In this document: positions 3,347 through 12,685 of the stretch, piece by piece
Position numbering within the stretch: position 1 is the stretch's first letter
Layout: the number at the start of each line of letters is the position of its first letter
Source of the DNA: Spirochaetales bacterium
GTDB taxonomy: Bacteria > Spirochaetota > Spirochaetia > SZUA-6 > JAFGRV01
Assembly (NCBI GenBank): GCA_016930085.1
Contig: JAFGHO010000053.1
Coordinates: 1 to 53,845, forward strand
Direction: 5' to 3'
Length of the DNA stretch: 53,845 bases
Position numbers and translations under genes: made by a program
Notes under the pieces: model-generated
Told to the model about the DNA's origin: nothing
What the model saw: only the letters and a program-made list of their open reading frames with translations
The model's database searches: none

Positions 3347-5116
3347 TCATCTGAATTGCTTTTTTATAAACCGGTCAAACTCGGCGGAAAAACAGGCAAG
3401 CGAATCATCTTCGTTTCTTACAATATATCCCTTTCGTTCCAGTGCCTCGGCGGGAGGAGAAGCCCCGTCAGGTTGTTTTCCCCCTGCTATCCTGCCGAAT
3501 ATGTCCCGTTCATCATCCGATAACATTTCGAACACATATTCAAAATGCGGTGTTGCCTCTTCCCTGAACATATCGGTGACATCCCTGGGGGTGGTTTTCC
3601 TTACAAAATTTTCGGCGTCACATCCTTCACAATCAAGATATTCGAACCAGGCCGAACAGGCCATCTGGAGGAAGAAAGGGTACGTTCCTCCCAGTTCGAG
3701 TATCTTGTCGCAGACAGGGGCAAGTGGAATCCCCCACTGTTCCGAGGGTTTTTCTATCAATTCACGGGCTTCGTTCGTCGTAAAAAGACCGATGTGATGG
3801 ACCGCGAATATATTGAAAAAGGGAGAATCCGATATCTGGTGCGATACGCACATGTCTTTTAAATTCTTCCCGGAAGCGGTGACAAAGGCCAGGGCGTAAT
3901 TGTTGGCAAGGGATCGAAAGAATGAATAGAATGCCGGGCCGATATGTTCGTTTTTTGTCACGGATTCAAACTCATCCAGAAAAAGTATAAACTTATACCC
4001 GCTTTCCGTTATCTGTTCACAGAGAAAGCGTAACCCGTCAAAGTCTTCCTTGCATACTATCTCTATCTCTTTTCCCATCTGTTTTTTCAAGGCGGAAAAA
4101 ATCATTGTAATGACCTGGGTTTCGTCCGTTGCGCGCATTTGTTGAAAATCAATGAAGAGAAAAAGGTATTGCTGCGCCTCCTCCATTCCGGACAGCCTTG
4201 TTTGAGGAAAGTTGAGATAATTGAGGAGCGATGATTTTCCGATCCGCCTTTCGCCGACAAGCGAGACGGACTGCGGACTTTCTGAGGAAATGCGCCTCAG
4301 GATTCTTTTAACCACCGATTTCCTTCCGAAAAACATATCAGGGTGGGGGATCATCACACGGTTGAGATAGGGGTTGCCTTTTGTCATCAGAGGTCTGATC
4401 TCTTTCTGTTTTTCCTGCAGATCGACGGGCTTCCTTATGACGACTTTCTGCTTCAGCGGAACGGCTTTTTTTACAGCCTGGGCTGGTTGCATGCGGCTGT
4501 TCCATGATTTCCTTATATCTTCTTCCGGCCTGTTGTCCCAGTTCACGACATAGAAATCGATCTGCTTCGTCTTTCCTTTTACGAAATCCTTACCCAGAAA
4601 AACGAGGGGGAAATCCTGATCCGCTATTTTTTCCTTTAGTGATCCGGAGATGAGGATTTCGGCGGCTCCGGCACGGGCTTCGACCCTGGCGGATGTATTG
4701 ACCATATCACCGAAGAGATCCCTGTCGTCGACGACCGCCTCTCCAAAATGAAGCCCCATCCGGACCTGTATCCTCTGATTTTCGTGCTTTGTGGCATTAT
4801 GTGAGGCGAGGGCGGTCTGCATCTCGATCGCGGATCTGATGCTTTTAACTGGGTCTTCGAAGCTTGCCATAATCGAGTCGCCGATCGTCTTGATGATTTT
4901 GCCGCCATACTTCTCGATGATGGGGAAAAGGAGATCGTTATGGGTCTGAATCATCTGCCTTCCCGCGATATCGCCCATTCGTTCGAAATAATGGGTTGAA
5001 CCCACGATATCGGTAAAGAGAAGGGTAATCGGTTTGGTGTATTCCTTGAGAATCTCACCGTCGATCTCTTCGAGTAATGCTTGTCTCTGTCGTAACAGTT
5101 CTTCGATATTTTTCAT
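3347..5116 (-). CDS. Class III nucleotide cyclase fused to a STAND-like P-loop ATPase
   Basis: Residues about 28-190 form a class III cyclase domain: metal ligands D36 (LFTDIVGST) and D80 (KTIGDSIMASF), K76, D137 in FGDMVN, and the transition-state residues N140 and R144. All catalytic positions are filled, so an active enzyme, probably adenylate cyclase, is expected. A linker of about 60 residues leads to the motif NPYL...PDMFFGR (248-265) and a P-loop ATPase with Walker A GERRIGKSS (288-296) and Walker B FILFLDEFE (D381, E382), followed by the GGTYPFFLQ motif of the PF01637-like group. There is no membrane span, so it is cytoplasmic. It is last in a four-gene operon, 21 nt after a related ATPase; AGGAAG precedes the ATG. 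I infer that the ATPase module senses something and gates cyclase output. Confidence 0.88.
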   Translation of the reverse strand: MKNIEELLRQRQALLEEIDGEILKEYTKPITLLFTDIVGSTHYFERMGDIAGRQMIQTHNDLLFPIIEKYGGKIIKTIGDSIMASFEDPVKSIRSAIEMQTALASHNATKHENQRIQVRMGLHFGEAVVDDRDLFGDMVNTSARVEARAGAAEILISGSLKEKIADQDFPLVFLGKDFVKGKTKQIDFYVVNWDNRPEEDIRKSWNSRMQPAQAVKKAVPLKQKVVIRKPVDLQEKQKEIRPLMTKGNPYLNRVMIPHPDMFFGRKSVVKRILRRISSESPQSVSLVGERRIGKSSLLNYLNFPQTRLSGMEEAQQYLFLFIDFQQMRATDETQVITMIFSALKKQMGKEIEIVCKEDFDGLRFLCEQITESGYKFILFLDEFESVTKNEHIGPAFYSFFRSLANNYALAFVTASGKNLKDMCVSHQISDSPFFNIFAVHHIGLFTTNEARELIEKPSEQWGIPLAPVCDKILELGGTYPFFLQMACSAWFEYLDCEGCDAENFVRKTTPRDVTDMFREEATPHFEYVFEMLSDDERDIFGRIAGGKQPDGASPPAEALERKGYIVRNEDDSLACFSAEFDRFIKKQFR

Positions 5117-5137
5117 GGCTTCCTGTACCTTTGGCGG

Positions 5138-6139
5138 TTAATAATATTTCTGCCCCTTGAAAAGCCCGGCAGCCGGATTTCGTTTGAGAAAAGCGAGAAA
5201 AGCAGGTGAAAAAGGAGATAACAATTCATCGTCTTCAACAAGAAATCCATGCCGGATCAAAGGCCGGAGAAGATGAACGTCTTTTTGATCGGGTTGCCTT
5301 CCTTTTGCTATGTGCTTGAGCGGTGAAGAGGCTTCTTTCGGTAATATTGTCAATATTTCTTCGAAGTATGGGGAAATGACGGGCAATAATTTTTGTTCGT
5401 AATGGTTTTCATCCAATTGTAAAAGAGCGGGATTTTTTTCATATCCGCAAGCGATAAGCTTGATCATATAGGGGATGGGACCAGCCCACGATATGATGTT
5501 ATCGGCGACCTCTTTTTCGATCCCGGAGATCGTTTGAAGCAGTATTGCGCCGTTTTGCACGGAAAGCGGGCCAATGGCGAAATTGGTAAAGATATTGAAA
5601 AAAGGAGATTCTTCTATATCCTTGGCGACACATAATTTCTGGAGTTCCAAAAACGATGTGGTTACATATGCGACATTATAATTGTTGGCCAGTGAACGTA
5701 AAAAAGAAAAAAACTCCAGGGGGAATTCCTTGTTTCCGGTGACAAAGTGAAAATCATCGAGCAGGAGAATGAGTTTTTTCCCCGCCTGATGAATATCCTG
5801 CACTATTTTCTGAAGCGTCGCATACTGATTCGTATCCGGTTCCATATCCGGTGAGGCGCTGCCGATTATTTTTGAAATGAAGTGTTCGGCCCGTTCCGAG
5901 GCATGCTCCTGTGAATGCATCAGATAAAAGATATAGTTATCCGGTTGTTTGAGGTGCTCGTTTCTGATTTTCTCATTGAATATATAGTTTATAATCGATG
6001 TTTTCCCGCTTTTTCTTCCGCCGATAATCGCGATCGATTGGGGCCTCTCGGCGCCGATACGGGAAAATATCCGTCTGATGATAGCCGTTCTTCCGAAGAA
6101 ATCATCGGGATTGGTGACAGGTGCATCGGGATCGATCAT
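5138..6139 (-). CDS. STAND-like P-loop ATPase without a partner domain
   Basis: A 333-aa protein made almost entirely of the same ATPase module as its two operon neighbours. An N-terminal PDDFFGR motif (11-17), Walker A GGRKSGKTS (40-48) and Walker B LILLLDDFHF (D128, D129) are visible, followed by a GPIPYMIKLIACGY segment matching the GG-x-P region of the related proteins. The second acidic residue of Walker B is Asp where the others have Glu, so hydrolysis may be weaker. There is no membrane segment and no signal peptide. AGAGGAG lies upstream of the ATG, and the gene starts 16 nt after the stop of the envelope-protein gene. It may form hetero-oligomers with the cyclase-ATPase. Function unknown. 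Confidence 0.8.
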   Translation of the reverse strand: MIDPDAPVTNPDDFFGRTAIIRRIFSRIGAERPQSIAIIGGRKSGKTSIINYIFNEKIRNEHLKQPDNYIFYLMHSQEHASERAEHFISKIIGSASPDMEPDTNQYATLQKIVQDIHQAGKKLILLLDDFHFVTGNKEFPLEFFSFLRSLANNYNVAYVTTSFLELQKLCVAKDIEESPFFNIFTNFAIGPLSVQNGAILLQTISGIEKEVADNIISWAGPIPYMIKLIACGYEKNPALLQLDENHYEQKLLPVISPYFEEILTILPKEASSPLKHIAKGRQPDQKDVHLLRPLIRHGFLVEDDELLSPFSPAFLAFLKRNPAAGLFKGQKYY

Positions 6140-6155
6140 GAATATTCGTCTCCTC

Positions 6156-7091
6156 TTAAAAGTTAAAAAACAGGTATATATTTAAATTGGCAAATAAAAA
6201 CCGCAGCATATCCGGGATAATGTCAATCGAATCATAGCCTGAAGTAATCTCGGACGTTTTTGAACCGAGCATCAGATCGAGTCTTACGATCTCGACTTCT
6301 GCGGCAAGTCCCAGACCTATACGCCAGATCACTTCACCGTGGCCACATAGACCGAGGGAATGGGTAAAGCCATAGTAATTGCGGTCGTTTTCAAGATAAT
6401 TGTCCAGAGAAAAGATATAATATGTCGATAACCCGAAAACGACCTGTTCTATCCTGAACTCCGGAATCCAGATGATCCCGCCCTGAACGCTGAAATTTTC
6501 GAGCAGTCTTGCCGTCAGCTGAACTCGTGCATCGAGGACCAGGCTGAAATCCTCACTCAGGTTATAAGCGTAATGAAGCCCCGGTTGAATGATCGAAAGC
6601 AGGGTATCCTGGTGTTTAACAAGCGATGTAATGATACCGATATTGTGCCGTTTTGTCGTTCGTGAGAACCTGGCGAGGTATTCGGTTTTAACTTCATTAA
6701 AGAGTTTGATGAGTCTGGGTGGCACGACGGTAGGATCGTCGAGTTCGAGGCCCAGATCGAGACGTATCGCCTGGAGAAAGAGAAATCTAATCTCTTCCTG
6801 ATAACCTTCGGTCAGAAAAACAAATGAAACCATAGCCCGAAGCACATAGATATCCGACCGGACGCTGACCGGGTAGAATATGTCCTTTTCCAGAAATTCG
6901 TAGATATATGAATCAAGAAGCTGTTTGCATTCTTCATATTCTCCCTGATCATAGAGTTCTTTCGCATTCATGTATTTCATCTGCGCTTCTTTTCTCGATT
7001 CCGGCGTATCGGCGCCCCCCTGTGCTTGGATTGCCGCGCAAAAAAATGATGTGATTGCGAGCATGGTGATGATATATCCGGTGGTTCTCAT
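6156..7091 (-). CDS. Exported protein with TPR-like N-terminus and probable beta-barrel
   Basis: Not recognised as a named family. A signal peptide (residues 1-23, ending AIQAQ) is followed by a helical TPR-like region (about 35-130; YMNAKELYDQGEYEECKQLL). The rest (about 145-311) alternates hydrophobic and polar residues as in an outer-membrane beta-barrel and ends in NIYLFFNF, a terminal aromatic residue typical of BAM substrates. The start codon lies 3 nt after the stop of the PEGA-ATPase gene, and its AAAGGAG site lies next to that stop codon, so translation is probably coupled. Its position between ATPase genes suggests that the operon links an envelope component to cytoplasmic ATPases. 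Confidence 0.72.
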   Translation of the reverse strand: MRTTGYIITMLAITSFFCAAIQAQGGADTPESRKEAQMKYMNAKELYDQGEYEECKQLLDSYIYEFLEKDIFYPVSVRSDIYVLRAMVSFVFLTEGYQEEIRFLFLQAIRLDLGLELDDPTVVPPRLIKLFNEVKTEYLARFSRTTKRHNIGIITSLVKHQDTLLSIIQPGLHYAYNLSEDFSLVLDARVQLTARLLENFSVQGGIIWIPEFRIEQVVFGLSTYYIFSLDNYLENDRNYYGFTHSLGLCGHGEVIWRIGLGLAAEVEIVRLDLMLGSKTSEITSGYDSIDIIPDMLRFLFANLNIYLFFNF

Positions 7092-7094
7092 CAG

Positions 7095-9206
7095 CTACTC
7101 CTTTAAGATTTCGGGTGGTTGTTTTTTGGTGAGATCCCAATCGATGGTTAGGGTTTTCCCCTCTTCGACCGTGACGGTGACGGTCTCGGATATCTTGAGG
7201 CTTTCGTTTTCAATTTTCAGCTGTTGCGTGCCCGCTTCCACCCTCAGGGGTTTCACCCGCGGGGTTTCGACCGGGTGGGCCACTTTTTCCTCGAACTCGA
7301 TCACCGAGGTATCCTCGAAATAGACAAGTGCAGTGGGCCGTATCCGCAAGACAATGAAGCCGGATATGCGTTCCAGGTCCATTTCGACTGTTATCGGGGC
7401 TTCCTTGTCGACGGCGACCTCTTTCGATACCGTTCTGTGACCTTTGAGTTTTAGTTCCACCGTATATGTGCCGGGATCAAGCCCGCTCAAGACATTCGGT
7501 GTTTTCAAATCCGTCTTTTCCCCGTTCACGATGATGTCCGCGCCGGGGGGGGTGCTTGAAATGATGATCGAACCGATGGCGGCTTTTTGGACAGTCCGCG
7601 GAGTTTGCTTATTTTCCTGCCCGGCAGCCCCCGACTCCTTCTTGAAACTGACCTCGATCGCCTGGTTATCGGTATTCACCAGTGTCGCCATATTGATTTT
7701 TTCACCCGTCTTCGGATATATAAATTGAAAAGTATGGTCTCCGGCGGTCATGACCGGGTAGACGATCGTCAAAACATCGTCACCGCCTTCACTTGAAAGG
7801 GTCAGGGCTTCGTCGATGACCACACGAAATGGCCCGTAATTCGAACGGAAAACGATATCGTTCACTTCACTCCCGGCTTCAACGCCCGTGCGTATGTCTT
7901 GCCCGTTTCCTTCGGCGATACCGGTAGCCTCGGGGCCTTTCAGGTTGGCGCCGGAAAGAATAAAAACCCAGAAGAGAATGATGCCGATGACCGGCACTGA
8001 AGCGATGAGGCCGACGATGACGGGATTTACGGGCCTTTTCAATCCCAGACCTATTTCCTTTGTCACTTTCCAGATGGAATGCTCTTTTTTTATCCATCTC
8101 CTGAAGATATCCATGCGAAAAGAGTATTCCTGGCGGTCGTTTTTTTTGAGAAATTCCATATGGTAGGCATCTTCAAGCAGAATATTAATACGTTCTTTCT
8201 TGAACGGCAGCTGGATCTTGTTTTTCATCAGGTATGCATAGATTTCCTGTGTTCCCGCTACTGCCGCGGGTCCTTTCAGCACTCCGCTTAATGCGGAAAG
8301 TATGAGTCTGATATAATCGCCGAGGTTGTTCCACGAGTAGATCATCTGGGGTAATGGATTGTTGACGATATCCTTGATAACGGTTTTGAGATCCTCCGGG
8401 GAAACATCGTTACGCTCTTCCTCGATAAGCAGGTCGACGATATTCTGGCATATCACCTGAGTGTAGAAGGGTTGGCCCCCGGTAAGTCTGTAAATCGACC
8501 CTATGACATCTTCCGGATAATCGATGTAATCTTTCAAAGGATCGGTAATAAGCCGCGCGGTATCGTTTTCAGAGAAGTAGGAAATTTTTCTGTATATCGA
8601 TTTTCCGAGTAGCGATTTCCAGAAATCGACCTTCCTGTTTTCCAGATTTGTCGACCCCGTAAAAATAAACGACACCTTGTACGGGCTTTCCAGAATCCCC
8701 GAAAGAAAATGGATGACCGATTCACTGAATGTCCCGTCCTTGATCTTTGTTTCGATCAGTTCATATTCGTCGAGAAGAAAGAGTACTATTTTTTCCGGAT
8801 ATCGCTCCCTGACAAGATCCAAAAATGCCGTAAAAAGACTCTCGGTTTTTTTCTCCGGGGCGGTGTTTTTAATCGTATCGATCGTAAGTCCCGGTATTGA
8901 GAGTTGTGAACACGCGACATCGAGGATTGCTTTGAAGAAATCAGTATCGTTTTTTATGCCGGCGAGTATCTGCATATCGATAAGAATGGGAAGGAATTCT
9001 CCGCCGAGCCGGCCGAGCCGTATCTGAAAAAGAATCGATGTTTTGCCGCTTCTTCTGTCACCGCAGAAAATCAGAACCTGATTCGAGTGGCCGCCTCCGA
9101 TCTTTCGGATTACATATTGAAAATCGTCTTCCCGGCCGAAGAACATCTCCTTTGTCTTTATAGGATTACCGACAATATAGGGATTATAGGGTATCTTTTT
9201 CATCAC
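7095..9206 (-). CDS. Membrane-anchored STAND-like ATPase with PEGA domain
   Basis: First gene of the operon, 703 aa. The motif NPYIVGNP...EMFFGRE (8-25) precedes Walker A GDRRSGKTS (49-57) and Walker B VLFLLDEYE (D146, E147), then the GG-x-P motif LTGGQPFYTQ (about 242-250) and a helical region to about 385. A transmembrane helix (about 396-418) places the remaining 285 residues outside the cytoplasmic membrane. A PEGA domain (about 545-610; SSTPPGADIIVNG) lies there, a fold found in surface or cell-wall-associated proteins. The start is GTG at 9206 or ATG at 9203; no ribosome binding site is seen, and a TATAAT box ends 9 nt upstream, so a leaderless transcript is possible. The layout suggests a transmembrane sensor. 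Confidence 0.85.
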   Translation of the reverse strand: MMKKIPYNPYIVGNPIKTKEMFFGREDDFQYVIRKIGGGHSNQVLIFCGDRRSGKTSILFQIRLGRLGGEFLPILIDMQILAGIKNDTDFFKAILDVACSQLSIPGLTIDTIKNTAPEKKTESLFTAFLDLVRERYPEKIVLFLLDEYELIETKIKDGTFSESVIHFLSGILESPYKVSFIFTGSTNLENRKVDFWKSLLGKSIYRKISYFSENDTARLITDPLKDYIDYPEDVIGSIYRLTGGQPFYTQVICQNIVDLLIEEERNDVSPEDLKTVIKDIVNNPLPQMIYSWNNLGDYIRLILSALSGVLKGPAAVAGTQEIYAYLMKNKIQLPFKKERINILLEDAYHMEFLKKNDRQEYSFRMDIFRRWIKKEHSIWKVTKEIGLGLKRPVNPVIVGLIASVPVIGIILFWVFILSGANLKGPEATGIAEGNGQDIRTGVEAGSEVNDIVFRSNYGPFRVVIDEALTLSSEGGDDVLTIVYPVMTAGDHTFQFIYPKTGEKINMATLVNTDNQAIEVSFKKESGAAGQENKQTPRTVQKAAIGSIIISSTPPGADIIVNGEKTDLKTPNVLSGLDPGTYTVELKLKGHRTVSKEVAVDKEAPITVEMDLERISGFIVLRIRPTALVYFEDTSVIEFEEKVAHPVETPRVKPLRVEAGTQQLKIENESLKISETVTVTVEEGKTLTIDWDLTKKQPPEILKE

Positions 9207-9214
9207 TGATCAAA

Positions 9215-9220
9215 ATTATA
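9215..9220 (-). promoter_or_regulatory. Minus-10 box upstream of the ATPase/cyclase operon
   Basis: A perfect TATAAT on the minus strand (9220 to 9215). No good -35 hexamer is found 16-18 nt upstream. The predicted start point falls within a few bases of the first codon (9206 or 9203). Confidence 0.35.
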
Positions 9221-9396
9221 ATACATTTTGAACCGTAATGGTAGGTTAATACTTCTTTTTTTTATAATAGAAGAATAAAAATTGAGTCGAATTATTGTAT
9301 AGCGAATATTGTCGTTCAGCGTGCGATTTTCTCACCGGAATGAAGCATCTCCGCCCTGTTTCGGCGTTTTTTTGAATCACCTCGACGGATATTATT

Positions 9397-9428
9397 GCGG
9401 CTGTACGCGAGAAATTCGCGATAGCCGC
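9397..9428. terminator. Strong nested hairpin after the small-protein gene
   Basis: GCGGCT pairs with AGCCGC and, inside it, CGCGA pairs with TCGCG around a GAAAT loop, with a small internal loop (GTA opposite AT). It starts 9 nt beyond the minus-strand stop at 9437. No U-run follows on either strand, so it may be a Rho-independent-like stop, an mRNA stabiliser or a protein site. Confidence 0.4.
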
Positions 9429-9436
9429 TTTATCGG

Positions 9437-9655
9437 TTACGGTTTACTTCCGATGAGGGTGATATTCATTCCGATCTGGTAACGTTCTCCGCTTTCCGGA
9501 TTGGTTACCTTTTCACCTGCATAAAAACCGACCGATCCCGTTGAAAAATGTTTTTTCCCGGCGATAAACGATCCCCAGGTCTTCCCCTCCGGGGATGTAA
9601 TTGTTACTTGAAGAAAATCCGGCGCTTTCTGGTCTCTTTTTTTCGGTTCGGGCAT
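9437..9655 (-). CDS. Small conserved-looking protein of unknown function
   Basis: A 72-aa polypeptide with no signal peptide or membrane segment. It contains beta-rich segments (FLQVTITSPEGKTWGSFIAG, then VGFYAGEKV), a glycine-rich middle and an N-terminus rich in Lys, Arg and Asp. A textbook AAGGAGG lies 5 nt before the ATG, which argues that it is translated. It stands alone, upstream of and in the same direction as the ATPase/cyclase operon, separated from it by a strong hairpin. I do not recognise the family. Confidence 0.6.
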   Translation of the reverse strand: MPEPKKRDQKAPDFLQVTITSPEGKTWGSFIAGKKHFSTGSVGFYAGEKVTNPESGERYQIGMNITLIGSKP

Positions 9656-9883
9656 GGAACCTCCTTTTGAAATATATGTTCGACTGGGTGCTGGCTATTT
9701 ATACATCAGGTTGAGGAATATGTCAATATTTCGGGGGCATTGCAGTTATTTCAAGTATCCGGATGTTTTTATATATCGGTTTTTATATTATACTGTTTCC
9801 TGAACAATATAGTTATATATCCGGACGACTCTGAACCGGGTTCGGTTTTATTTAACAGGATAATTCGATATGGTGTTAAATAA

Positions 9884-10720
9884 AAGACCGGAAAGCAGGC
9901 TCCTCATTATACTCCGGAAGGACACAGCGACAGAATCGTTGCGTTATGTATCGCCCCCGGAGGAAAACGAATTATTTCCGTTAGCAGGGACAGGACATTA
10001 AGAATCTGGGATGCCGATATGGGGCGGTGCATGATCTCGATTAAAAAGGGTATTAAAGACATTACCTCACTGGCAGTAACGCCCGACGGTAATCATTTTT
10101 TGACGGGCGGGAAAAACGGAGTCATAACGATGCGGGCTTTGGAAAACGGAAAAAAATGTAATAGATTCGAAAGTAAATTATCGGCAGTAAATAATGTTCT
10201 GGTCACCGGGGACGGGAAATATGTTATATCGGGGAGTGAGGATAAAACGGTGAGAATATGGAACCTGACTTCAGGAAAATGTCTTTGGATTGTCGGGGGA
10301 TATCATTGGGAAAATAATGCGGCGGTTCGTTCAATGGCTATAACACCCGGCGGCCGCTATATTGTATCGGCAGGTCTGGATATTGTTATCTGGAAATTCG
10401 GTAAATTGACGTTAAAGCTGCCGGATTTGATTCGTTTTATATTGTGGGGATTAACGCGGTCAGGTCCGGCACGAATTTTTACAATAGACGGTTATATGTA
10501 TGCAAATGTGCTATTGATTATTAACGGTAACTATATCGCTTACTCATCGGACCGAATTGGGGAAGTTAATTTGATAAAAAGAAATAATGGGAAATGTGTT
10601 TGGGTTTTGGAATCGATGAATACGAAGAACACCGTACTGTCTCATACGGACGGCACACTAATAGCAGCCGGCTGTGAAAACGGCACGATACACCTCTGGG
10701 ATTTAAAACTTATAGTATAA
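9884..10720 (+). pseudogene. Decayed WD40-repeat gene lacking its 5' end
   Basis: The reading frame is open from 9884 and immediately encodes a good WD40 blade (GHSDRIVALCIAPGGKRI then SVSRDRTLRIWDAD). The first in-frame start codon (ATG 10019) falls after that blade, just past the RIWDAD. Four or five further blades follow (for example ISGSEDKTVRIWNLTSGKC and AGCENGTIHLWDL), with a poor region near 10400-10560. A short open frame with an ATG at 9870 lies in another frame, so a frameshift or 5' deletion is likely. A complete propeller would need seven or more blades, so the expressed part from 10019 (233 aa) would be an incomplete propeller. It may be the remnant of a larger WD40 protein. Confidence 0.65.
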
Positions 10721-10738
10721 GCAGGATTTACAGAAATA

Positions 10739-10909
10739 ATGAAACGCACGATAATTATCGGGGACATTCATGGCTGTATCGACACCGGTATATGTCACGG
10801 GGGGTATCTTACAGCAGACACTATTCCCGATTTCAAGATATATTCGGTCAAGGCCGCTAAGAATTATTGGTCCAAAATCAAACATGAATGGAAGGGTATT
10901 GAATTATGA
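10739..10909 (+). pseudogene. Collapsed metallophosphatase relic (N- and C-terminus joined)
   Basis: The 56-codon frame begins MKRTIIIGDIHGC, the metal-binding N-terminus (GDIHG) of calcineurin-like PPP phosphatases such as diadenosine tetraphosphatase or PrpE. It continues directly into CIDTGICHGGYLTA, which matches the C-terminal D-T-G-x-x-x-G-G-x-L-T-A motif of the same family, then ends with a plausible C-terminus. Roughly 150 central residues, with the GNHE and other metal ligands, are missing. The start, the frame and the stop survive. It follows the WD40 relic by 18 nt on the same strand. It cannot be an active phosphatase. Confidence 0.7.
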
Positions 10910-10975
10910 GTGTTGGTTCATTGAAAACATCATCCGCTCCCTTCACAGGTTTTCGATAGTGGATGTGCTATCGGG

Positions 10976-12685
10976 TCATTTTACCTTTATTTCAATAAGG
11001 CCGTATTTGCCTTTATCCCTGACCGCAATATAGTAAATACCATTTTTTTCTTTTAATATGTAGGCGTTTTCAAACAACGGTTCAATAATAATTCTTCCAT
11101 CACGGTCGATCACACCGGATTTATCATCTTTCTTGATTCGTCCCCAATTTATGTAATATTCAACCATATCATACCGTGGTTCTACGATTGTGCCGGTTGA
11201 CGTATCGACAAAGCCCGCTTTTCCGTTCTTGATAATAATTATATATTTATTTTGAACACTGTAAATTGAATCATATTTCGGTTCTACGACTATATGTCCT
11301 ATTTTATCGATAAAACCCCATTTGCCTTCACTTTCAAAGGACGCCATTTCTTCCAGTATGAAATCACCGACGTCAACAAAAGACGGTTCGATAACAAGTG
11401 TGCCGTTTCTGTCCAGGAATCCCCACAAACCGTTTTTATTGATTTTAGCCAGCCCATGATAAAATGTTTTTCCGACATAATCATACTGCGGTTCAATGAT
11501 TGTTTTCCCGGTCTTATTGATAAAGCCTTCTTTTCCTTCGATTTTTATTGACGCGTAGTCATTCTCGAGTTTCCCGATACTGTCATACACAGAAGCCAAC
11601 ACAATATTGCCGTCAGTATCCATTAATCCGTATTTGCCTTCTTTCGTCACCTTAAGTAAATCCCTGAATTCTTCCCTGTTTTCCGAACAACAAGTGAAAT
11701 ACTCTATTGTATCAAGCTGGGGTTCAAGAAGTGTTTTGTTCCCATATTTATCCATTATTCCCCATTTACCGTTTTTTTCTATCAATAAATTGCCGTCAAG
11801 AAGATTTTTAATGCAACTATATTGTGGAGGCTGCTTTATCCTGCCTGTGACATCAATGAGTCCCCATAACATGCCGGATTTTATCTTGAACACATTTGTC
11901 ACAATTTCCCCCTCATTATTCGAAAAAGAAAGCGCTTCCATTTCATTGTATTCCGGTTCGATTATGATTTCTCCCCGGGATGACATCATTCCCCACCGGT
12001 TGTTTTGTTTAATCATGACATAATTTTTTCCCGGATAATCGCTGATTTTCACTTCATCGAACATTGGATTTATCAATAATCTGTATTTAAAGTTGAAAAA
12101 TCCCCATTTCCCGTTTTTTCTGACCGGTGTTATTCCTGCAAAACCAAGGCGTTCTCCTAATTCGTCAAAGCATGGTTCAATGACGAAGTCTCCATTTATA
12201 TCAATGAATCCCCATCTGCCTTCTATTTCAACACCCATCATTTTGCCTAAAAACGACACTTCGACGGTATCAAACCTGGGTTCAATAATGAAGTTTCCTT
12301 TTTTGTCAATGAATCCCCATTTCCCTTCTTTTTCAACGCCAACCAATCCTTCCGAAAAAAAATAATATGCCCGGTGAAATTGAGGAGGAATCACTATTTC
12401 ACATTCGGTATTAATAAAGCCTGCTTTTTGATCGAGCCATATCCGGGCGAAATCATCATGCCCGGGATGCTCGATAGATCCGTATTTTATATCCAATACC
12501 ATATTACCGGATTTATCGATGATACCCCATTTATCATTTTTCTCGATAAGAAAACGATTGTCGTCGAAAACCTCTATTTTCTCGAATTCAGGTTTCAATA
12601 TATATCGATAACCGTTACCGGAGCTGCATTGGAATAACAGAATGACTGAAAATAATAAAATGAATATAGCTGTAATTTTATTCAT
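10976..12685 (-). CDS. WG-repeat lipoprotein
   Basis: A 569-aa lipoprotein: the signal peptide ends in a lipobox (SVILLFQC, C20). About 15 tandem repeats of 33-40 residues follow, each with the core [KR]WGFIDKxGxxxIEPxxD, the WG beta-repeat (PF14903-like). Copies include KWGIIDKSGN, KWGFIDKKGN, RWGFIDINGD, LWGFLDRNGT and KYGLIEIKVK at the end. Such repeats form solenoid or propeller-like surfaces used in protein or ligand binding, but the role here is unknown. AAGGAG precedes the ATG. Base composition is more AT-rich than that of the core genes in the window, and the neighbours are relics, which suggests an accessory gene. Confidence 0.85.
   Translation of the reverse strand: MNKITAIFILLFSVILLFQCSSGNGYRYILKPEFEKIEVFDDNRFLIEKNDKWGIIDKSGNMVLDIKYGSIEHPGHDDFARIWLDQKAGFINTECEIVIPPQFHRAYYFFSEGLVGVEKEGKWGFIDKKGNFIIEPRFDTVEVSFLGKMMGVEIEGRWGFIDINGDFVIEPCFDELGERLGFAGITPVRKNGKWGFFNFKYRLLINPMFDEVKISDYPGKNYVMIKQNNRWGMMSSRGEIIIEPEYNEMEALSFSNNEGEIVTNVFKIKSGMLWGLIDVTGRIKQPPQYSCIKNLLDGNLLIEKNGKWGIMDKYGNKTLLEPQLDTIEYFTCCSENREEFRDLLKVTKEGKYGLMDTDGNIVLASVYDSIGKLENDYASIKIEGKEGFINKTGKTIIEPQYDYVGKTFYHGLAKINKNGLWGFLDRNGTLVIEPSFVDVGDFILEEMASFESEGKWGFIDKIGHIVVEPKYDSIYSVQNKYIIIIKNGKAGFVDTSTGTIVEPRYDMVEYYINWGRIKKDDKSGVIDRDGRIIIEPLFENAYILKEKNGIYYIAVRDKGKYGLIEIKVK

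Follow-up and report, generated by a model that had tools for sequence, protein, structure and literature searches.

Very probable remnant of a metallophosphoesterase gene at the edge of a conserved gene block in a Spirochaetales genome

Metallophosphoesterases of about 330–350 aa, mostly from Bacteroidota (e.g., Mucilaginibacter, L042; Flavobacterium, L044; Chitinophaga, L046), are the nearest counterparts of the short frame described here. They carry GDIHGC near the N-terminus and a IDTGACHGGYLTA...VKxxKDYW stretch, both shared with the frame, which in contrast has neither their 165-residue middle nor their C-terminal tail. Somewhat further away stand the phosphatase domain of bacterial PnkP and the symmetrical Ap4A hydrolases, whose models TIGR04075, NF001204 and NF010148 weakly match the C-terminal half of the frame (E 0.00016, 0.01 and 0.017), at scores far under the curated cut-offs (20 of 750, 15.2 of 176 and 14.6 of 340 bits, respectively). 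Both ends of the frame also match one solved structure, 4j6o_A (“Metallophosphoesterase”), which we take to be a PnkP phosphatase domain, at residues 16–26 and 223–255 and thus about 200 residues apart, the N-terminal match being weak when taken alone (7.2 bits). A broken member of this group is found in Pseudobacteroides cellulosolvens (L041, 2650–3490), the top-scoring relative in our scan of genome contigs, so that decay of this phosphatase gene is not unique; its damage is of another kind, however, with the start missing, stop codons inside and the middle partly kept. Among titles and the beginnings of abstracts, we found no literature on this gene, only general work on pseudogenes.

The window, the whole 53,845-nt stretch of DNA analysed here, holds the following features around the frame:

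3350–9206, minus strand: four consecutive genes whose order is kept in same-family genomes
9437–9655, minus strand: 72-aa gene, with which the conserved syntenic block 3350–9655 ends (72% and 68% identity in two same-family genomes)
9884–10720, plus strand: WD40-repeat frame, ending 18 nt before the probable remnant
10739–10909, plus strand: 56-codon open frame, a probable metallophosphoesterase remnant, with ATG at 10739 and TGA ending at 10909; encodes MKRTIIIGDIHGCIDTGICHGGYLTADTIPDFKIYSVKAAKNYWSKIKHEWKGIEL
10739–10777, plus strand: N-terminal piece MKRTIIIGDIHGC, comprising the first strand and the first of the metal motifs (GDxHG)
10776–10779, plus strand: putative deletion join, with about 495 bp (165 codons) missing
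10778–10909, plus strand: C-terminal piece IDTGICHGGYLTA... through the TGA stop
10976–12685, minus strand: 569-aa gene with many short W-G-like (WG-type) repeats, following the frame

The two ends of the frame were compared with a profile built from 11 members of the metallophosphoesterase family, leaving out the window sequence. Residues 1–15 match profile positions 1–15 (16.5 bits) and residues 14–52 match positions 179–217 (49.0 bits), so that two ends of one family stand here in their proper order and reading frame, lacking a piece of constant length between them. This agrees with the first-pass annotation, which had described a metallophosphatase reduced to its two ends. GDxHG is a short and common motif, and one could suppose that two unrelated small motifs have met by chance; yet the whole frame scores 60.8 bits against 9.4 for the top of 2,000 shuffles and both pieces are in register with a single family, which makes such a meeting exceedingly improbable. 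We consider instead that 10739–10909 is very probably a pseudogene remnant of a metallophosphoesterase gene, left by ordinary gene decay in a lineage-variable stretch. The two correctly ordered matches to a single family profile, the constant spacing in relatives, a WD40 neighbor without a start and the absence of the stretch from three related genomes all support this reading.

Conserved motifs tell what the frame has kept. GDxHGC is invariant in one alignment of family members (A1), and the GDxHG metal motif is present in the N-terminal piece, as is the DTGxxxGGxLTA motif in the C-terminal piece. GDxVDRG, GNHE and the later His metal ligands are missing, and none of the conserved columns of a second alignment (A2), namely GD (38–39), GNHE (65–68), H (121) and GH (179–180), is represented; in this family these columns carry metal ligands. 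Because GDxHG is the only metal-binding motif kept, the remnant should not be a phosphatase, and judging from its residues we expect no such activity and a loss of function.

One point that counts against a pseudogene is that the frame runs open from a start to a stop, like a small gene. It had been called unusual for random decay for this reason, but one deletion in three would be in frame by chance, and thus 56 open codons make no strong case for selection. The open frame, together with a C-terminal half that matches the family well over 39 residues with no stop, could also be taken to mean that the remnant is kept as a functional small protein, such as a phosphatase partner or decoy. We regard this as very unlikely, as the join is found in no other locus that we fetched, the genome holds no intact family member and the predicted structure of the 56-aa frame is poor (mean pLDDT 62.4, pTM 0.36). 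The leftover frame may or may not be translated, and there is only a slim chance that the cell still produces it and uses it for a separate function, as a mini-protein retaining two strands of the phosphatase fold, the first and the last.

The extent of the missing piece can be read from relatives. A scan of genome contigs, with the join IHGCIDTG among the seeds, gave 22 loci, of which 19 were measured, leaving out L061 (an unrelated protein matched by chance), L062 (cut by the end of its contig) and L041. From the Cys of GDIHGC to the Ile or Leu of IDTG the distance is 165 residues in 16 of the 19, and 164, 172 and 232 residues in the other three, so that most likely about 495 bp were lost in frame; the two halves do belong to one protein as proposed earlier, at slightly more than the “about 150” residues then given. 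In 17 of the 19 relatives the protein continues for roughly 110 residues or more beyond the position of the window frame's stop (L060 ends near that point and L057 is shorter), and the window frame has no such tail. Therefore, of the frame, start and stop that were said to be retained, the open frame and its ATG stand, while the stop is doubtful as an original feature, since the tail is nowhere in the genome. The relatives L041–L060 are 45–58% identical to the window frame in tblastn matches, and the join was placed by comparison with relatives 53–58% identical over the aligned residues because no intact copy was found in a near relative.

How the two ends came together is less clear-cut. A deletion between short repeats had been suggested from a shared GC-x-D, which is not supported: this pattern is present on the N-terminal side in 12 of the 19 relatives, but on the C-terminal side the residue before Ile/Leu-Asp is Gly in all 19 and never Cys. 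At the DNA level, uninterrupted identity across the putative join amounts to 2 bp in 10 relatives and 0 bp in nine, and no direct repeat able to explain the join lies within 9206–10980. A deletion with little microhomology fits these sequence comparisons. The ancestor was very probably a metallophosphoesterase gene of the ApaH/PrpE/PnkP-phosphatase type, in the form of about 340 aa that our scan finds mainly in Bacteroidota, presumably acquired from outside the lineage. An in-frame deletion of about 165 internal codons, involving little or no microhomology, would then have joined the two ends, and the C-terminal tail was probably lost by a second lesion.

Neither an intact copy nor the middle or tail was found elsewhere in its own genome with the family profile up to E 10, which answers the earlier suggestion to look for the intact gene there. 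The profile picks up just the two remnant pieces, the C-terminal one being its only strong match; ten PF00149 matches lie elsewhere in this genome and the family profile recovered none of them at E 10. At E 1e-10 the same profile has a match in 31 of 198 genomes, own included. The only match in a same-family genome (G004) was rejected as the missing ancestor, being an intact phosphatase of 212 aa set among other genes. Searched against 60 relatives (61 genomes with its own), the 56-aa frame gave nothing better than E 0.016.

A conserved family of such short proteins, which would speak against decay, was sought in genome contigs, viral contigs and plasmids, including scans of the genome and viral contigs seeded with IHGCIDTG, and was not found; among 195 loci the join motif is present in just four, all of which cover the window's own location. 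No Pfam family matched the 56-aa frame; one weak match came from PHROGs (E 0.11), two weak ones from phages (aminotransferase) and six weak ones from plasmids (E 0.1–1), of which four carry the annotation polynucleotide kinase-phosphatase. Viral contigs gave no match to the frame, and in a family-profile scan the join was in none of the best 80 of 178 viral-contig relatives.

Given that the assembly is a draft of 135 contigs and that the join is seen in a single genome, misassembly or a minority variant might have removed the middle of a gene that is in fact intact. We hold such an artefact to be unlikely, as the joined points share only 0–2 bp in relatives, which disfavors repeat collapse, the missing middle and tail are on no other contig and the adjoining WD40 frame looks damaged as well. 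That frame, 9884–10720 (plus strand), is preceded by a TAA at 9881–9883 and has no ATG, GTG or TTG before 10019, a first listed start that lies within the repeats, while its WD40 matches already begin at residue 3 when translation is read from 9905; because of the preceding stop and the lack of a usual start it is probably 5′-truncated, damaged like the remnant. Elsewhere in the genome there are WD40 open frames of greater length (1,044 and 1,484 aa).

The pseudogene reading also agrees with the position of the remnant. The minus-strand genes 3350–9206 and the 72-aa gene are conserved in two same-family genomes (G002 and G004), and in a third (G001) conservation reaches only to 9206. At the corresponding place these three genomes, which hold the flanking block, have no match to an intact ancestral gene, the WD40 frame, the remnant or the WG-type repeat gene, the contig of G004 ending about 1.7 kb past the 72-aa gene; thus the remnant lies in a stretch not shared by them, at the edge of a conserved block. 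The WG-type repeat gene has partial matches (26–57% identity) at other places in four same-family genomes. Automatic annotation could list the remnant as a small phosphatase or small protein, and beyond annotation it is of little importance; it offers a clean example of how a deletion may leave behind a frame open from start to stop, and of gene decay bordering a conserved block.

Some minor observations concern the surroundings. An antisense frame overlapping the remnant, at 10706–10903 (minus strand), weakly matches G004 (28% identity, E 2e-5) inside the place of the conserved 703-aa gene in that genome, and was taken as chance. Promoter-like and terminator-like hits in the region are consensus matches only. 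Within the conserved block, part of the 3350–5137 protein also matches relatives of its neighbor 5141–6181 at about 30% identity. Among the loci collected, L095 (4218–6800) holds a long series of short direct repeats separated by spacers, with repeated SIPACTGKP/GLSPRVRGN peptides, and looks like a CRISPR array.
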